Positions 1,840 to 29,951 of a stretch of DNA of 29,951 bases are shown piece after piece. The position numbers and the translations under genes are program-made. The notes under the pieces were generated by a model, which was not told the DNA's origin, did not search any database, and saw nothing but the letters and a program-made list of their open reading frames with translations. This DNA is from a virus, in the IMG/VR virus record IMGVR_UViG_3300027839_000051, positions 1 through 29,951 of that record. One strand, given 5' to 3'. The first letter of the stretch is position 1. Each line of letters starts with the position of its first letter.

Positions 1840-2025
1840 ATGAGCAAGCTAACAGAAGAACTAAGTGATTTCGCATTCGAGATCGCCAGACTAGCGGATG
1901 GGGGATACATTGGTAAGGGCGACCTCGCCATCCTAGAGTTGTGCCATCGTGAGCTAGATCGTATCAGTGAAGATCTGATGGAAGGGGAGCGAGAAAATCA
2001 AATCAATCTGAGGGGGATTACGTGA
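1840..2025 (+). CDS. small early protein of unknown function
   Basis: A 61-residue acidic, mostly helical protein, first gene of the rightward recombination operon. ATG lies five bases after a GGGGGA ribosome site and about 17 bases after the expected transcription start. Its TGA stop overlaps the GTG start of the ERF gene (GTGA), which implies translational coupling. I do not recognise the family. Position suggests an accessory of recombination or early control, but nothing in the residues shows that. Confidence 0.7.
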   Translation: MSKLTEELSDFAFEIARLADGGYIGKGDLAILELCHRELDRISEDLMEGERENQINLRGIT

Positions 2026-2618
2026 AAACATCAACAGAACTCGGCGAGCTAGCAACAGCCTTATCAAAGGCGCAGGGAATTATCCAGAATCCCAACAAGG
2101 ATGCCGCCAATCCATTCTTCAAATCGAAGTACGCAGATCTTGCGGACGTGCTGAACGTCGTCCGCCCTGCCTTTTCTTCAGTGGGCCTGAGCGTGGTGCA
2201 GATGCCGGTCAACGCAGAGGGTAATGTGGGCGTGGTAACTCGCCTCATGCACAGTAGCGGTCAGTGGCTAGAAGGGGCAATAGACATCCCGATCCAAGGG
2301 AAGAACATTGCACAGGACGCGGGAAGTACGATTACTTACCTGCGCCGCTATGCGCTTGCCGCCGTAGCCGGAGTCTTTCAGGAAGACAACGATGCTAATC
2401 TGGGAAAAAACAACACTGCGCCAGTGCAGAGCATTCAGGCTTCGATCAAGCCCGATAAGATAAAAGTTATCGAGGATCTCATCGCCAAGACTGACACAGA
2501 CAAGGCGGCATTCTGTAATTGGCTATCCGTCTCTGACGCATCAGGCATCATGCCCAACCAGTACGACAAAGCTGTGTCCGCACTAGAGAAGAAGTGGGAG
2601 CAGATGAATGCAGATTGA
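2022..2618 (+). CDS. ERF-family single-strand annealing recombinase
   Basis: A 198-residue protein starting at GTG 2022, with AGGGGGA upstream and its start overlapping the previous stop. Hallmarks of the ERF superfamily (P22 Erf relatives) are visible: NPFFKSKYADLADVL at 30-44, where the family typically reads xNPFFKSKYAxL, and GSTITYLRRYAL at 101-112. These proteins form rings on single-stranded DNA and anneal complementary strands in phage recombination. The C-terminal region (about 120-198) is variable and more charged, as usual. It is paired with the YqaJ exonuclease next door, the classic exonuclease plus annealing-protein pair. The 3' end overlaps the next gene by 11 bases. Confidence 0.92.
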   Translation: MKTSTELGELATALSKAQGIIQNPNKDAANPFFKSKYADLADVLNVVRPAFSSVGLSVVQMPVNAEGNVGVVTRLMHSSGQWLEGAIDIPIQGKNIAQDAGSTITYLRRYALAAVAGVFQEDNDANLGKNNTAPVQSIQASIKPDKIKVIEDLIAKTDTDKAAFCNWLSVSDASGIMPNQYDKAVSALEKKWEQMNAD

Positions 2619-3423
2619 ACTAGAACAAGGCTCTCTCGAATGGCATGAGCACAGGGCCAAGTACCGCAATGCGTCAGAGGCTGGTGCAGTCATGGGGGTC
2701 AGTCCGTATCAGACTCCCCGCGAATTGTGGGAATCCAAGAACGGCATAGGAAAACCATTCCAAGGTAATGTCGCCACAGACTACGGTATTGCTATGGAAC
2801 CCGAAGCACTAGCCATGTTTGAGGAGCTATGGGAGACCGAGCTAGAGCCAACAGTATTCGTAGATGGGGAGTACAGTGCTAGCCTGGATGGATATAGTGT
2901 CAGTTCTATCATGGTCGAGATCAAGTGCCCGTACCAGAAGCAGCAATCTAAACTGTGGCAGACAGAGGAAATCCCAGAACATTATTACTGGCAGATGGTG
3001 CACCAGCAGATGGTTTGCAAAGCAAAGAGATGTTACTTCTTTGTGTACATCGACGATAACCATTACCGAGTGACACCTATGCTCCCTAATCAGGGCGACA
3101 TAGAAAAGCTACGCGCAGCTTGGGATGACTTCTATGCTAATCCGCCCGAGCCTAAGTTCCAGAATAGGGATGATCTGATCCCACTTGCCGAGGAGTACGC
3201 TGCGCTCAAAGCAGCAGCCGATGACGCCAATAAGAAACTAAAGGAGATAGAGACACAACTAAAGCGATCATGCGAGGTTAGTTCTGTAGCGGGTAACGTG
3301 CAGATACAGACCATCTGCAAGAAAGGCACTATCGACTACAAGTCTATTCCTGATATCAAAGAGGTAGATCTGGAGTCATATAGAAAACCAACCACCACTT
3401 ATCAGAAGGTAACAATTAAATGA
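2608..3423 (+). CDS. YqaJ-type (lambda exonuclease-like) 5'-3' exonuclease
   Basis: A 271-residue protein of the YqaJ/lambda-Exo nuclease family. The N-terminal signature NASEAGAVMGVSPYQTP (21-37) is typical. The catalytic core reads G60...E64 then SLDGY with D94 and VEIKCP with E104-x-K106, the PD-(D/E)XK set that binds divalent metal. The family resects double-strand ends to give 3' single strands for the annealing partner, here the ERF protein encoded immediately upstream. Residues about 195-240 are Ala/Lys/Glu-rich and look like a coiled coil, perhaps for oligomerisation. ATG at 2608 lies within the end of the ERF gene, and the stop overlaps the next start (ATGA). Confidence 0.92.
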   Translation: MQIELEQGSLEWHEHRAKYRNASEAGAVMGVSPYQTPRELWESKNGIGKPFQGNVATDYGIAMEPEALAMFEELWETELEPTVFVDGEYSASLDGYSVSSIMVEIKCPYQKQQSKLWQTEEIPEHYYWQMVHQQMVCKAKRCYFFVYIDDNHYRVTPMLPNQGDIEKLRAAWDDFYANPPEPKFQNRDDLIPLAEEYAALKAAADDANKKLKEIETQLKRSCEVSSVAGNVQIQTICKKGTIDYKSIPDIKEVDLESYRKPTTTYQKVTIK

Positions 3424-3683
3424 GCGAGAACGAATTTGTAGACGGGCTGTTTGTTAAGCCTCCACATGGAAACGCACCTGACTTTGTGAAGGTATCTATT
3501 AGCATTAATAAGCCGGTACTTATGGCTTGGTTAGAAAAACAGACCGGCCCTTGGGTAAACATAGATACCAATGAATCCCGCGCTGGCAATTGGTATTCCA
3601 AATTAAACACTTTCGTACCTAAACCACCTGAATTCCCTCAAGCGGATGATAAGGCACCAGCCTTCGATGACGTTCCGTTTTGA
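3420..3683 (+). CDS. small protein with SSB-like acidic C-terminal tail
   Basis: An 87-residue protein coupled to the exonuclease by an ATGA overlap. The body (about 1-70) contains an FVKVSISINKPVL segment and two Trp-containing stretches and is probably a small beta-rich fold. The tail, about residues 72-87, is acidic and ends exactly in FDDVPF, matching the DDxPF tip by which bacterial single-stranded DNA-binding proteins recruit partners. In a recombination operon this suggests either an SSB substitute or a protein that competes for SSB partners. DNA binding is not shown by the sequence; the tail is the evidence. The stop lies 4 bases from the stop of the convergent lysis gene. Confidence 0.78.
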   Translation: MSENEFVDGLFVKPPHGNAPDFVKVSISINKPVLMAWLEKQTGPWVNIDTNESRAGNWYSKLNTFVPKPPEFPQADDKAPAFDDVPF

Positions 3684-4035: not shown

Positions 4036-4406
4036 TACTTCCTCATTAGCTTAGATACACCACGTATTCCAAACGAACTAGAAATGGCGATGAATAGGAG
4101 ATATTGATACCATTCTGGGAGTTGTGACAGCGCCTTGAACCCTGCGTCTACCCGATCAATAACAGTCACATCATTGGCCGCTATAGCATAGCCCACCATA
4201 AACAAGGGGATAGATAGTATGATCGTCCAGAACTCATCCTTCCAGGAATGGGCGCTGGCATCTGCCATCTTGCCTTCCCAGTTCGCATCGCTCTGGATCA
4301 CGCTCATCTTAGCCTGATGCTTGGCTTGCTTCTCCTCTGCTCTATTGTTGAGAAACGTCTTGCCGACATCGGCAATAGGCCCGAGCAGTGCAGTGAATAT
4401 ACTCAT
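4035..4406 (-). CDS. holin-like membrane protein (3TM/GTA holin type)
   Basis: A 123-residue membrane protein. An amphipathic charged N-terminal half (about 20-55, rich in Glu/Lys/Gln) is followed by WKDEFW and two hydrophobic segments at about 59-77 and 99-115, ending in a basic tail. This layout matches the phage and gene-transfer-agent 3TM holin family. It sits between a T7-type holin gene and the endolysin gene. It probably forms or regulates the lesion in the inner membrane that releases the endolysin, or acts as an antiholin or spanin-like partner. Family assignment is by pattern only. Confidence 0.75.
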   Translation of the reverse strand: MSIFTALLGPIADVGKTFLNNRAEEKQAKHQAKMSVIQSDANWEGKMADASAHSWKDEFWTIILSIPLFMVGYAIAANDVTVIDRVDAGFKALSQLPEWYQYLLFIAISSSFGIRGVSKLMRK

Positions 4407-4413
4407 GCCGAGG

Positions 4414-21135: not shown

Positions 21136-21242
21136 AATGTTCCACATGAAACATTTGCATATTCTGAGGTTTTCGACCGAGTGCCCGACAGATCGGTCAG
21201 TCTACAACCTTAATCTGTCAGGCCCAAGATGGGGTATCTGAC
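21136..21242 (-). promoter_or_regulatory. capsid mRNA leader with three hairpins
   Basis: The 155-base gap between scaffold and capsid genes holds three inverted repeats: GTCAG/CTGAC with an inner CCC/GGG (21217-21242), GACCGA/TCGGTC (21175-21198) and AATGTT/AACATT with an 8-base loop (21136-21155). None has a following U-run, so they are not typical terminators. They may be RNA processing or stability elements, as RNase III sites are in T7. No good sigma70 promoter is visible here. Confidence 0.55.
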
Positions 21243-26732: not shown

Positions 26733-26761
26733 TTGACAGTGATCTGGGTGATCTATATCTT
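26733..26761 (+). promoter_or_regulatory. rightward sigma70 promoter with repeated spacer
   Basis: TTGACA (26733-26738) and TATCTT (26756-26761) are 17 bases apart. The spacer carries a direct repeat GTGATC-TGG-GTGATC (26739-26753) that could be a repressor site. It drives the rightward small-gene block. A matching leftward promoter for the late operon is not clear in this gap. Confidence 0.75.
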
Positions 26762-26803
26762 CGCTCCATCGAAGTATACATCAATCAGAACGGAGCAGCA
26801 CTA

Positions 26804-26899
26804 ATGAACGACAAGAACACCGGCGGAGACTTCTGGCTACTGGCGACCTTTCTCGTCTTTTTTTGCGCCATCATTTTCGCACCAGCTTTACTAAATTAA
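26804..26899 (+). CDS. 31-residue membrane peptide
   Basis: ATG at 26804 with CGGAG about 9 bases upstream. A polar start (MNDKNTGGDF) precedes one hydrophobic segment from W11 to about L30 (WLLATFLVFFCAIIFAPALL), so it is a single-pass membrane peptide. It is the first gene after the 26733 promoter. The first bases of the gene and its ribosome-site context repeat almost exactly at 28249. Function unknown; small early membrane peptides in phages often act on host or superinfection. Confidence 0.68.
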   Translation: MNDKNTGGDFWLLATFLVFFCAIIFAPALLN

Positions 26900-26916
26900 T
26901 CAGCACGGAGACACAC

Positions 26917-27216
26917 ATGAACAACGCAGCACATCTGACCCACAGCATCCAAGAAAAGCTCGGCCACGAATTCTACCGAGTCAACAACGACAGCAACGGA
27001 AACCCCCGTTATGTAATCCACTATCTAGCATTTGCCAACGAATACGAAGACGCCCGAGAGATCGCCAACAGCATCGGCTTTCACGTATACCGAGCGCGAG
27101 AGTTTGGCGGCGGTTTTGTCACTCAGTCATACAACATAGAAAATGACGCCGAGTTAATCATTGAGGCACGCCCTGCCAAACCTGCCGCAAAAATAGAAGG
27201 GAAAAGAGAGAAATGA
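26917..27216 (+). CDS. small early protein of unknown function
   Basis: A 99-residue protein; ATG 26917 is chosen over an upstream start because CACGGAGAC precedes it closely. The body is mixed alpha/beta with many Asn, Tyr and Glu (NPRYVIHYLAFANEYEDARE) and ends in a Pro/Lys-rich tail. No family is recognised. It is followed by a coupled gene (ATGA). Likely an early host-interaction or regulatory protein from its position only. Confidence 0.7.
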   Translation: MNNAAHLTHSIQEKLGHEFYRVNNDSNGNPRYVIHYLAFANEYEDAREIANSIGFHVYRAREFGGGFVTQSYNIENDAELIIEARPAKPAAKIEGKREK

Positions 27217-27416
27217 AAACAAAAAGAAGCATGAAGGAAAGGGACTGCCATGAGTGCGCCGCAACCATTCACAAAGGCGATCAATATGGAAAGCGTTCTG
27301 TGTCGCTCGGTAGACAGTCCTCATGGGGTATCGACGGAAGGCCAGCAGAAGAAATTCCTGCGTGGGCCTGGTCTGACTTTCGCGTCAAGGTCGATATCTG
27401 CGCTTCCTGTGCATAA
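27213..27416 (+). CDS. small zinc-binding (CxxC...CxxC) protein
   Basis: A 67-residue protein with CHEC (C12, C15) and CASC (C63, C66) pairs 47 residues apart, a probable zinc ribbon or treble clef. The N-terminal stretch CAATIHKGDQYGKR resembles zinc-finger starts of small regulatory or nucleic-acid-binding proteins. It is coupled to the gene before it (ATGA). In an early block a role in binding host transcription or nucleases is possible, but inferred. Confidence 0.7.
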   Translation: MKTKRSMKERDCHECAATIHKGDQYGKRSVSLGRQSSWGIDGRPAEEIPAWAWSDFRVKVDICASCA

Positions 27417-27447
27417 TGCAACCCCAAACCAAAAAGAGGATCAGATA

Positions 27448-27603
27448 ATGCAACTAGAAGACGCGCTCGAATGCACTGTCACACGCAAAGAAGCCATTGC
27501 CGAAATCATGAAGCATGACCTACCCGCCGACGAATTCTTCGACGACGTAGGCGACCGGCCAGAGTATCGCGGCTCGGAAGTCCTACTCTGGCTGGGCTAC
27601 TAA
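27448..27603 (+). CDS. 51-residue conserved phage protein
   Basis: ATG 27448 follows AGAGGAT by about 8 bases. The protein (51 residues) has a helical first half (RKEAIAEIMKHDLPADEFF) and ends DDVGDRPEYRGSEVLLWLGY, a pattern I recognise from small early proteins of many phages. No function is known. Its stop TAA overlaps the ATG of the next gene (TAATG). Confidence 0.75.
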   Translation: MQLEDALECTVTRKEAIAEIMKHDLPADEFFDDVGDRPEYRGSEVLLWLGY

Positions 27604-27761
27604 TGAGAATTTTGCTAGCGATCGCTCTCCTTCTGGCGGTGCTGTGGGTCAGCACAGAAGACCACGATTTCGAGGTAGAGCAGCACAAGCAATACGTCAA
27701 AGACGTCTGCGCTGGATTTCACCCCGATTACAAAAACGCCAAACCGGATTGCACCAAATGA
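27603..27761 (+). CDS. small exported or membrane-anchored protein
   Basis: A 52-residue protein starting at ATG 27603 (TAATG overlap). Residues 1-17 (RILLAIALLLAVLWV) form a signal or anchor segment, followed by an acidic region and two Cys (C36, C50) that could form a disulphide in the periplasm. It ends with an ATGA overlap onto the next gene. An envelope role such as superinfection exclusion is a guess. Confidence 0.7.
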   Translation: MRILLAIALLLAVLWVSTEDHDFEVEQHKQYVKDVCAGFHPDYKNAKPDCTK

Positions 27762-28021: not shown

Positions 28022-28146
28022 AAATTAAAATGGCAAACGGGATTTACATAGCCACATTCAAGCATCGTAGCGGGAGCGTCTACTTCGGGTATAGCCCTAG
28101 ACTCAGCGAGGCGATGACATTTTGCGCAGGACTTATTCCAGAATAG
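28018..28146 (+). CDS. 42-residue protein, last of the small-gene run
   Basis: ATG 28018 overlaps the preceding stop (ATGA). The 42-residue product is basic and beta-like (IYIATFKHRSGSVYFGYSPR), then SEAMTFCAGL. It is too short for most gene finders, but the coupling and the terminator 24 bases after its stop support it. Function unknown. Confidence 0.65.
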   Translation: MKIKMANGIYIATFKHRSGSVYFGYSPRLSEAMTFCAGLIPE

Positions 28147-28170
28147 ATGCGCTAAACAACGCGAAACGAA

Positions 28171-28195
28171 GTCCGCTTGATTGCGGGCTTTTTTT
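28171..28195 (+). terminator. rho-independent terminator
   Basis: GTCCGC-TTGATT-GCGGGC stem-loop (one wobble pair) followed by seven T. It ends the 26733 transcript. A TATAAT box begins 16 bases further on. Confidence 0.85.
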
Positions 28196-28210
28196 GCCCC
28201 CAATATCGCA

Positions 28211-28216
28211 TATAAT
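28211..28216 (+). promoter_or_regulatory. -10 box of a rightward promoter
   Basis: A perfect TATAAT at 28211-28216 lies directly after the terminator. The -35 region falls in the T-run and is weak. A ribosome site GAGGAAGAGG and ATG 28249 follow. The arrangement recurs at 28684 and 29542. Confidence 0.6.
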
Positions 28217-28248
28217 CGCAGACTCACTAACGAGAGGAAGAGGCACTA

Positions 28249-28428
28249 ATGAACGATAAAAATATGCTGGCGGATCTTCACCAGCCCGAGCCCACTTTGG
28301 CGAAGCGTTTAAGATTTCACCTCGAATTCATGGGGGTGATGGGCATGGCTGGCCGGGAAGACGAGCGCGACAGACACTACACCAAGGCGCGGGAAATCGC
28401 GCAGCAACTAATAGATGAGGGCCGTTAA
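28249..28428 (+). CDS. 59-residue early protein of unknown function
   Basis: ATG 28249 with GAGGAAGAGG upstream; the first bases (GCACTAATGAACGA) repeat the start of the 26804 gene. The protein is helical and charged, Met/Arg-rich (FMGVMGMAGREDERDRHY, then KAREIAQQLIDEGR). Stop and next start are one base apart. No family is recognised. Confidence 0.68.
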   Translation: MNDKNMLADLHQPEPTLAKRLRFHLEFMGVMGMAGREDERDRHYTKAREIAQQLIDEGR

Positions 28429-28429
28429 A

Positions 28430-28606
28430 ATGGCGAAACTCAACAAAGCGCAGCGGGCCGCACTGGTCCGCAAATGGAAGCAGGACCCGCAGGGGATGAC
28501 ATACCGCCAATTCAGGGCAACCGTCCATGCAGGCTACGATTGCGTTATGGTCCAATGGTCCGGGATGTGGTTGGGGATCGAATCGGACGGTTACACGCAC
28601 AGCTAA
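28430..28606 (+). CDS. 58-residue conserved phage protein
   Basis: ATG 28430 follows GAGGG; start chosen over 28415 because the MAKLNKAQRAALVRKW opening is the conserved one. The protein then reads YRQFRATV and ends MWLGIESDGYTHS, an end pattern found in small proteins of many phages. Basic N-terminal helix and aromatic C-terminus may bind nucleic acid, but no function is known to me. A strong terminator follows 20 bases after the stop. Confidence 0.78.
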   Translation: MAKLNKAQRAALVRKWKQDPQGMTYRQFRATVHAGYDCVMVQWSGMWLGIESDGYTHS

Positions 28607-28626
28607 ACAGTTGCCCAGTAATACCG

Positions 28627-28654
28627 AAAGGCCCGCCATTGTGCGGGCCTTTTT
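28627..28654 (+). terminator. strong rho-independent terminator
   Basis: AAAGGCCCGC, a CATTGT loop, and GCGGGCC followed by five T form a 7-bp GC stem extended by A-T pairs. It ends the two-gene unit at 28249-28606. Confidence 0.92.
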
Positions 28655-28683
28655 GTGGGGTGGCTATTACGGCAACGTGCGCA

Positions 28684-28732
28684 TAGAATCGCATACGCGG
28701 GGGCATACCGCCGCCGCTCACTACAGGGCAAC
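28684..28732 (+). promoter_or_regulatory. -10 box and conserved GC-rich leader
   Basis: TAGAAT at 28684-28689, then CGGGGGCATACC, CGCCGC and CTCACTACAGGGCAAC. This leader closely matches the one at 29542-29596. The -35 region is weak. The AGGGC element may serve as ribosome site. Confidence 0.55.
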
Positions 28733-28747
28733 ATGGGGGCAACCAGA

Positions 28748-29494
28748 ATGCTGAAAACAGTCGAATACAGTGGAGCAACAAAAACGCGCGGTATCGCCGT
28801 GACCTATCGGGCAGGGGAGCGCGACACGTATGGGACGTGCCCGACATCCTGCGAAATGAATTGTTCAGGCAAGGGGGCGCAAAAAATAGATCCGGACTAT
28901 TTCGCCGCATTGCTGGTGGCCGTACCCCGTCGGGGCGTGGCCTTTACGTATACCCATTTTGATTGGAATCAATGGGCGGACCGGTCCAATAAACGAAGCG
29001 AAGGCCAGACGGTCGTCAACTTTTCCGCCAAGACGCTGGCGAGTGCGGCGGCGGCGTCGCGAGTAGTTCCGGCGGTAGTCGTCCTACCGGCTACCGAGTG
29101 GGTTAGGGGAAAGTATGCGACCGCCCCGGCATTGGGCGGGGACCTTGTCCAGACTGATGCCGTGCGGGTCGTCCGATGCCCGGCAGAATATAGAGCGGGC
29201 TTCTCTTGCGGCGATTGTGGCGGCGGCGTCCCCTTATGCGCACGGGCGGACCGTGATTACATCATTGGATTTACCGCGCACGGTGCGGGCAAACGAAAGG
29301 CGGCGGACCCTGACACCCCCGGCGGCTGCTACGCGAACGGTGGCCGTGTCCGCCTGCACTGGGACGCGACCGCGAAAAGCGACCAAGGCGGGGAGTCTGA
29401 CGGGGAGCGGCTCGCCCGGTTTGCGCGAGGGCTCCGCCCGGGGTCGATTCTGCGCCACCATGTGGCGGGGGATCTGGGGTCTAACAAAGCATAA
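28748..29494 (+). CDS. cysteine-rich protein with CX3CX3C motif
   Basis: A 248-residue protein from ATG 28748 (GGGGGC about 8 bases ahead; an in-frame ATG at 28733 is possible). C31-x3-C35-x3-C39 lies in TYGTCPTSCEMNCSG, and a second cluster C144, C154, C157, C164 in RCPAEYRAGFSCGDCGGG and VPLCARADRDY; C194 is extra. Between them are strand-helix units (VAFTYTH, QTVVNFSAKTLA, VVPAVVVLP) that could belong to an alpha/beta barrel. The first motif is one residue longer than the radical-SAM CX3CX2C. Metal or Fe-S binding is probable; the reaction is unknown. I recognise similar proteins in other phages but no function. It is GC-rich compared with the rest of the window. Confidence 0.75.
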   Translation: MLKTVEYSGATKTRGIAVTYRAGERDTYGTCPTSCEMNCSGKGAQKIDPDYFAALLVAVPRRGVAFTYTHFDWNQWADRSNKRSEGQTVVNFSAKTLASAAAASRVVPAVVVLPATEWVRGKYATAPALGGDLVQTDAVRVVRCPAEYRAGFSCGDCGGGVPLCARADRDYIIGFTAHGAGKRKAADPDTPGGCYANGGRVRLHWDATAKSDQGGESDGERLARFARGLRPGSILRHHVAGDLGSNKA

Positions 29495-29511
29495 AGTGCG
29501 GGCTTTTTTTG
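29484..29511 (+). terminator. possible degenerate terminator
   Basis: GTGCGGGC followed by seven T and GTGGGG copies the downstream half of the 28627 terminator, but the matching left stem is missing; only AAAGC/GCTTT can pair over an 11-base loop. It may be a decayed copy with reduced efficiency. Confidence 0.45.
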
Positions 29512-29517
29512 TGGGGT

Positions 29518-29602
29518 TTTACTTTCTATAAAGGTGTCCCATATAATCCCATTCACCGGGGGCAATTTCGCCCGCCGCTTCACTACACAGGGCAACTATA
29601 AG
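29518..29602 (+). promoter_or_regulatory. promoter with leader repeated from 28684
   Basis: TATAAT at 29542-29547 with TTTACT 18 bases upstream. Downstream come CGGGGGCA, a small GGGC/GCCC hairpin, CGCCGC, TTCACTACA and GGGCAAC, matching the 28684 leader block by block. ATG 29603 follows. Confidence 0.6.
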
Positions 29603-29951
29603 ATGAGCATTACACGAGCCGGATTGATCGAGATGCAGGACCAGTACAACGCGCGCGTGATCGATATACGTGACCCCCGCACCCGCCTGACGGCAAAACG
29701 GCGCGCCGCGTGGATAGATGAGGCCATGTCGCAGGCGGCCGCTATCGAGGGCAAGCGCCGCACCCGCCTGCTCGAGCGGGCCGACGTCGAGCGCCTTATT
29801 GACGCGGTGCGGGCGGTCGCGCGAACGGGACCTGAAGTCCGGACAGCTAGGTCGTACGCTGGGAACGGGCACTTCGTGCCGAACAGCTACGGCTACGCTG
29901 CTCCGATCACTGCGTGCGTGGTCGGTGCCAGAGGCCAGCCAGAGGCAGCCG
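29603..29951 (+). CDS. hypothetical protein, C-terminus beyond window
   Basis: ATG 29603 lies 14 bases after AGGGC in the repeated leader. The 116 visible residues have a basic, helical first part (RTRLTAKRRAAWIDEAMSQAAA, then a second RTRLLERADVERL) and from about residue 72 a looser segment (GPEVRTARSYAGNGHFVPNSY). Arg and Ala are frequent, with GC-rich codons. The end is cut off. Function unknown. Confidence 0.65.
   Translation, partial: MSITRAGLIEMQDQYNARVIDIRDPRTRLTAKRRAAWIDEAMSQAAAIEGKRRTRLLERADVERLIDAVRAVARTGPEVRTARSYAGNGHFVPNSYGYAAPITACVVGARGQPEAA

Follow-up and report, generated by a model that had tools for sequence, protein, structure and literature searches.

PeSL cassettes of T4-like phages were reportedly described by Arbiol in 2010 and by Comeau in 2014. 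In lambdoid phages, morons are extra genes that stand between conserved genes with a promoter and a terminator of their own, while the nut sites of lambda and P22 and the put sites of HK022 place a hairpin near the start of the message, shortly after a phage promoter. Authors who cite the PeSL (promoter early stem loop) work state that these elements mediate gene shuffling between T4-like phages (PMC4503421). The SAS and ESAS of Cluster K mycobacteriophages are short repeats that immediately precede the start codons of genes from different families; the SAS is a 13-bp sequence, GGGATAGGAGCCC, with a proposed role in translation initiation, and some copies are preceded by an inverted repeat (PMC3203893). 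Finally, De Paepe et al. reported that mosaics are formed from diverged sequences by Rad52-like phage recombinases, among them an Erf (PMC3945230).

We examined a complete IMG/VR viral fragment of 29,951 bases (hereafter, the window), and the box counts given for the window cover all these bases. A run of small rightward genes (26.7-29.95 kb) lies beside the leftward structural genes, and it contains three copies of a 14-base box, each of which begins a predicted small transcription unit (Table 1). We consider this region to be probably an early-gene island of interchangeable control cassettes, which would serve as homology for swaps of the genes behind them (the cargo).

The system appears to work like the PeSLs as the citing text portrays them: both are composite promoter-terminator units that recur in plastic accessory regions and are linked with the shuffling of genes from phage to phage. 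The composite of promoter and stem-loop terminator is repeated in the window at the sequence level, with an incomplete terminator in the third copy, and gene shuffling between phages emerges from the comparison of relatives only. What sets it apart is the non-T4-like genome, in which the terminase, head-tail adaptor and tail proteins resemble those of ZP6 and other non-T4 phages. Further differences from the PeSLs, as these are known from the citing text, are the podovirus-like character of the genomes, a box built as a 10-bp tandem repeat, a covarying hairpin after the promoter, and transfer across lineages. SAS/ESAS form the closest parallel to the leader part, to which the window unit adds a promoter-like box and usually a terminator; the 13-bp SAS sequence was not found upstream of the start codons, where the leaders carry ACTACGGAG or ACTACAGGGCAAC. 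The original prediction had likened the units to morons, and the anatomy of units 1 and 2 fits this, with cassette replacement seen between two cargo genes (TYRQF and DUF7227), but the control parts themselves are repeated and shared here, and we saw no sign of lysogeny or of a temperate phage. The cassettes share the position of the hairpin with nut and put but lack boxA, a likeness in anatomy only. The Rad52-like mosaicism of PMC3945230 involves ordinary shared sequence, whereas repeated control cassettes are involved here.

Table 1. Positions of the cassette features and recombination genes in the window.
Feature	Position	Strand	Details
Erf-like single-strand annealing protein	2022-2618	+	phrog_2324 E 2e-42; Pfam ERF E 1e-22
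RecE-like (YqaJ) exonuclease	2608-3423	+	phrog_434 E 5e-43; PF09588 E 1e-17
Cassette 1 control block (terminator and box)	28148-28225	+	78/78 identical to L002 3935-4012
Intrinsic terminator 1, GTCCGC-loop-GCGGGC, T7	28171-28195	+	-19.9 kcal/mol, z -4.9 vs shuffles
Box 1 and leader to start codon, without strong hairpin	28206-28245	+	95% identical to L002 5510-5549
Box 1, CGCATATAATCGCA	28207-28220	+	-10 hexamer 28211-28216
Cassette 1 cargo, 59-aa ORF	28249-28428	+	no relative found in fetched loci
Cassette 1 second cargo, 58-63 aa, TYRQF family	28415-28606	+	start more likely ATG 28430
Intrinsic terminator 2, GGCCCGC-loop-GCGGGCC, T5	28630-28654	+	-21.8 kcal/mol, z -3.7 vs shuffles
Cassette 2 control block (terminator 3' arm, box, leader)	28642-28732	+	93.6% identical to L002 4499-4592
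Box 2, CGCATAGAATCGCA	28680-28693	+	-10 hexamer 28684-28689
Cassette 2 leader hairpin, GCGG.GGC-loop-GCC.CCGC	28697-28717	+	from folding; homologous hairpins in L002, L160
Start-associated element CTCACTACAGGGCAAC	28717-28732	+	repeat D5; counterpart of AACTACGGAGG..AAC in relatives
Cassette 2 cargo, DUF7227 protein	28733-29494	+	Pfam PF23872 E 3e-30; start 28733 or 28748
Cassette 3 half terminator, 3' arm and T run only	29497-29511	+	z +0.4, no stable stem
Cassette 3 sigma-70-like promoter, TTTACT-18-TATAAT	29518-29547	+	10/12 in simple sigma-70 scan
Box 3, CCCATATAATCCCA	29538-29551	+	-10 hexamer 29542-29547
Cassette 3 leader hairpin	29557-29577	+	from folding
Cassette 3 leader end with TTCACTACACAGGGCAAC element	29572-29602	+	repeat D5; same in L002 6573
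Cassette 3 cargo, ORF open at window end, without known family	29603-29951	+	83% identical to L002 6638-6976

The boxes at 28207, 28680 and 29538 are the sole matches in the window at zero or one mismatch, against 0.13 expected by chance, and none of 100 shuffles reached three. The pattern was defined from these three copies and then tested in independent genomes. In the relatives of the region, which were fetched through the DUF7227 protein, the box recurs before gene after gene with the consensus C(G/C)CATANNATC(G/C)CA, and in 20 whole records its strict form had 24 matches, against one for the reversed pattern. The box consists of 10-bp units in tandem, C(G/C)CATANNAT, and the -10 hexamer sits within the repeat. 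We found the corresponding 10-bp-period form, C(G/C)CATANNAT(C/T)(C/G)CA, in 54 distinct contexts, against none for the reversed pattern and one in a control set of 80 terminase loci, while shifting the period by one or two bases left three contexts or none. Triple repeats occur at promoters with a TTGATC-like -35 (L016 670, L027 2040, L158 891 and others), and the reversed repeat was found at same-direction promoters, where it separates TTGACA from a -10-like hexamer 17 bases further along (L021 210, L167 4870, L173 4322, L169 19596). The CGCATANNAT repeats in the boxes look like an operator, because they are one helical turn apart and are used in both orientations; the reader of this putative operator would be a phage or host regulator. 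One candidate, an HTH_17 protein encoded near a reversed-box promoter (L167 3818-4291), was rejected since its distribution does not follow the box: it is present in the box-poor L007-L009, and neither the window nor L152 yielded it. We also disfavoured an extended -10 read by a special sigma factor, as the box occurs reversed between TTGACA and the -10-like hexamer.

Modules in the relatives run in the order terminator, variable -35 region, box, usually a hairpin where the message begins (for the most part with a GGGCAA loop), start-codon leader and gene. In the window, the half terminator of cassette 3 is identical at 15 of 15 bases to 28182-28196 of terminator 1 (TGCGGGCTTTTTTTG). The original prediction had described three terminator-promoter cassettes in series, each insulated and with its own promoter. 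The three boxes are real and terminators 1 and 2 are strong, but terminator 3 lacks its 5' arm, and insulation is accordingly retained for units 1 and 2 and not for unit 3. Cassette 3 passed the simple sigma-70 scan, but it was the only one to do so, the -35 hexamers of cassettes 1 and 2 being weak or absent. Transcription starts had been proposed at 28218, 28691 and 29549; the -10 hexamers move them a few bases to the right, and transcription would be expected to start at ~28223, ~28696 and ~29554, with presumably early timing. Separately, a promoter-like site without a box (TTGACA-17-TATCTT, 26733-26761) precedes the first rightward gene.

The leaders of cassettes 2 and 3 share repeat D5 (76% over 25 nt), and window positions 29497-29605 align at 74% (E 2e-8) with a leader of the cassette-2 type in L002 (4499-4600), which bears out the shared leader blocks proposed for these two cassettes. 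The proposal of one architecture throughout holds for the box and terminator of cassette 1 but not for its leader, which gave no strong hairpin on folding. The window hairpins of leaders 2 and 3 have loops other than GGGCAA and, one by one, are no better than shuffles (z -0.64 for cassette 2). Across distinct boxes, GGGCAA lies close downstream in 29 out of 53, and a stem of at least 5 pairs flanks 20 out of these 29. In the alignment of the 20 hairpins, whose rows were selected for GGGCAA (making loop constancy a matter of construction) and in several cases were found by pairing, 84% of cells were paired, against 51% in shuffles and 18-46% in slid controls. All six stem pairs show changes on both sides, and the covariation score was reached by none of 500 shuffles. 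GGGCAA is also the commonest non-palindromic hexaloop of 5-bp stems in the box loci, and the top loops of the control set do not include it; we count this preference as an independent sign.

Two roles for the hairpin were considered, both compatible with cargo exchange. It may merely protect the 5' end of the message or tune translation, which we regard as almost evenly balanced, if slightly on the doubtful side: the hairpin lies a few bases from the predicted 5' end and directly upstream of the start site, and its stem sequence is free while the pairing is kept, but the preference for one hexaloop is left unexplained. We think it unlikely that the hairpin is a nut/put-like antitermination signal, by which a modified polymerase would read through the terminators and the cassettes would be chained rather than insulated. 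The position at the expected 5' end of the message and the preferred GGGCAA loop speak for this role, as does the rrn-type boxA that follows the hairpin in three relatives (L013, L017, L021), but the cassettes themselves are without boxA, cassette 1 is without the hairpin, and an Rfam scan of six sources matched no family. In the window, rrn-type boxA showed no excess over chance. The three hairpin-boxA pairs of the relatives (L013 3924, L017 42, L021 257, with CGCTCTTTAACAATTTA or CGCTCTTTGACAATTTA) stand behind a TTGACA promoter with a reversed box and are possible antitermination leaders.

The nearest relatives of the cassette region were L002 and L019, two contigs from separate metagenomes that are 99.7% identical over 6.3 kb. 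Order in the window is permuted in six blocks with respect to L002, and homology switches at the stop codon at 28146, in the box and leader (28225 and 28245), and at the leader end (28732/28733). The cassette 1 block of L002 is flanked by genes that both differ from those in the window: to the left of cassette 1 the window has a gene that matches L002 1881-2274, and to the right a leader whose match, L002 5510-5549, lies in front of another gene. The L002 copy of cassette 2 precedes a gene unrelated to the DUF7227 cargo, and from 28733 the homology of the window jumps to L002 5764. L002 has five boxes, two of them within a 147-bp direct repeat (92.5%).

Among the relatives, BLAST assigned the cargo of 46 cassette units to 24 families; about 20 or more unrelated genes is the safer statement, because some families may be remote kin, and L158_3966 and L160_4734 are both GP88 by Pfam. 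This cargo includes DUF7227, GP88 and an ArdC N-terminal domain protein, together with many unknowns. Near-identical leaders stand before unrelated cargo in L015_4597/L015_4957 (97%) and L002_3658/L002_4538 (93%), and the 61-nt leaders of L024_4272 and L160_4734 are 98% identical with cargo unrelated by BLAST. The TYRQF protein has relatives at 69-76% in L003-L014, L024, L033, L154 and L164. TYRQF and DUF7227 are adjacent in the window and in L003-L012, where the order TYRQF-terminator-DUF7227 recurs; the pair is kept but the cassette between differs from that of the window in L006/L003, and therefore the cassette also turns over. Turnover of cargo between leaders, in L002 and across the 46 units, directly supports the original prediction of modular units that exchange cargo at repeated control elements. 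Direct DNA comparison with cultured phages recovered no cassette, just short terminator matches and one weak match of 41%.

Two further observations concern the genes of this region. In L002, the cargo at 4054-4413 combines an ArdC N-terminal (anti-restriction) domain with a relative of the small protein that the window encodes at 27444-27603. Within the window, 26798-26817 and 28243-28262 share a start-codon region, GCACTAATGAACGA(C/T)AA(G/A)AA (18/20). The two copies sit at the first gene of the rightward run (26804) and at the cassette-1 gene (28249), a pattern that would fit the joining of genes at start codons as well.

The repeats might instead be plain early promoters kept alike by selection, with genes moving by illegitimate recombination and the cassettes not acting as exchange sites. 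A regulon needs a common site, and the box is indeed conserved in relatives even where the flanking sequence diverges. We nevertheless hold this distinctly unlikely: the identity of the cassette 1 block covers terminator and spacer, which need no conservation, the block of 147 bp is duplicated in L002, and homology ends at the cassette edges.

We found that the terminase, head-tail adaptor, capsid and several neighbours in the window match L117 and L135, most at 60-93% protein identity, and that the terminase has Alteromonas phage ZP6 among its nearest cultured relatives. Contigs with the box encode another terminase, together with a DNA polymerase and a DUF932 protein, and are similar to phage DSL-LC04. 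When all viral contigs were scanned for TATCGCATATAATCGCA, 25 stretches were returned, nearly all from the DSL-LC04-like lineage, and the box was not found in the searched records of the ZP6-like lineage. The 17-mer matches in L174/L175 and L179 were outside recognisable cassettes and were taken as chance. Because the window core matches L117/L135 whereas the box contigs are nearly all DSL-LC04-like, the module is assigned to the DSL-LC04-like lineage, and the window cassettes most likely came across from there.

The absence of the box from the searched ZP6-like records, and of the 17-mer outside DSL-LC04-like contigs (chance matches aside), would also fit an assembly chimera, with the right end of the window being the join of a ZP6-like and an L002-like phage. 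Such a simple join is very unlikely, because the order against L002 is permuted in six blocks and the genes at 26892-27738 have relatives in other ZP6-like contigs (L099, L108, L115, L119, L121; some also in L002); in addition, the gene at 28249 is in neither the ZP6-like contigs nor L002. Metagenome assembly can join contigs at repeats, and cassette 1, with its 78 identical bases, is the most exposed, but there is 6% divergence between cassette 2 and its counterpart in L002, the agreement of L002 with L019 over 6.3 kb comes from separate metagenomes, and the TYRQF-terminator-DUF7227 order of the window is not unique to it.

A genome collection was scanned for a prophage or host, yielding one MAG contig (L164, binned Rhodospirillales); this is itself a phage contig, and no host was assigned. 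We also identified one or two perfect chromosome-type parS sites (TGTTTCACGTGAAACA, TGTTCCACGTGGAACA) in DSL-LC04-like phages (e.g. G002:C1:30229-30268 and G004:C1:11371-11410), with no matches for reversed controls. They were present in L003-L010, L013, L014, L020, L023, L024, L026, L027, L031, L032, L036, L037, L041, L043, L052-L054 and L155. Where inspected (L164, L167), the site lies just upstream of the large terminase gene, and it often follows directly on a CGCATATATT-like box. No ParB_N domain was found in the eight records searched, and these sites may recruit host ParB. At 21138-21153, immediately before the leftward major capsid gene, the window has a near-parS site with 1 mismatch (TGTTCCACATGAAACA), and the related record G015 (L117) has a similar site, TGTTTCACATGAAACA, at about the matching place.

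Taken by its sequence, the cassette system is real, widespread and well formed, and from it we infer promoter activity, an operator and recombination. In the exchange model that we prefer, a cassette would end the upstream unit through its terminator and restart transcription from a promoter of the sigma-70 type, with the -10 hexamer placed within the 10-bp tandem repeat; the new message would usually gain a short hairpin near its 5' end, followed by the start-associated leader. The same cassettes, standing before unrelated genes within one genome and across phages, would provide regions of homology, at which annealing-type recombination, probably by the phage Erf and RecE-like proteins, would swap cargo genes or whole cassettes, so that an incoming gene would bring a working promoter and usually an insulator. 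The homology switch points and the presence of the Erf and RecE-like genes point to recombination at the cassettes; these two proteins could drive the exchange, and cassettes that share 90-100% identity over 60-150 bp would suit Rad52-like recombinases as substrates. Next to the RecE-like gene, positions 3420-3683 encode an 87-aa protein whose terminal DDVPF resembles the acidic tip of single-strand binding proteins and which has relatives at 38-48% in both phage lineages.

Beyond the original prediction, sequence comparison thus indicates three further features: a box made of a 10-bp tandem repeat that occurs in either orientation, a leader that forms a covarying hairpin, and a module common to two unrelated lineages. 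It is a tentative and rather doubtful extension that unrelated podophage lineages sharing a host use the portable promoter, the 10-bp operator and the GGGCAA hairpin (for antitermination or stability) as an exchange format under a common regulator; if so, any gene behind the unit would join the early regulon, and the unit itself would supply the homology for the swap. The cassettes would represent a second case, outside the T4-like phages, of control cassettes acting as gene-exchange sockets, with an explicit and searchable consensus. They expose a conserved RNA hairpin and an operator-like repeat, and would help in studying how different phage lineages exchange small accessory genes without losing their expression.
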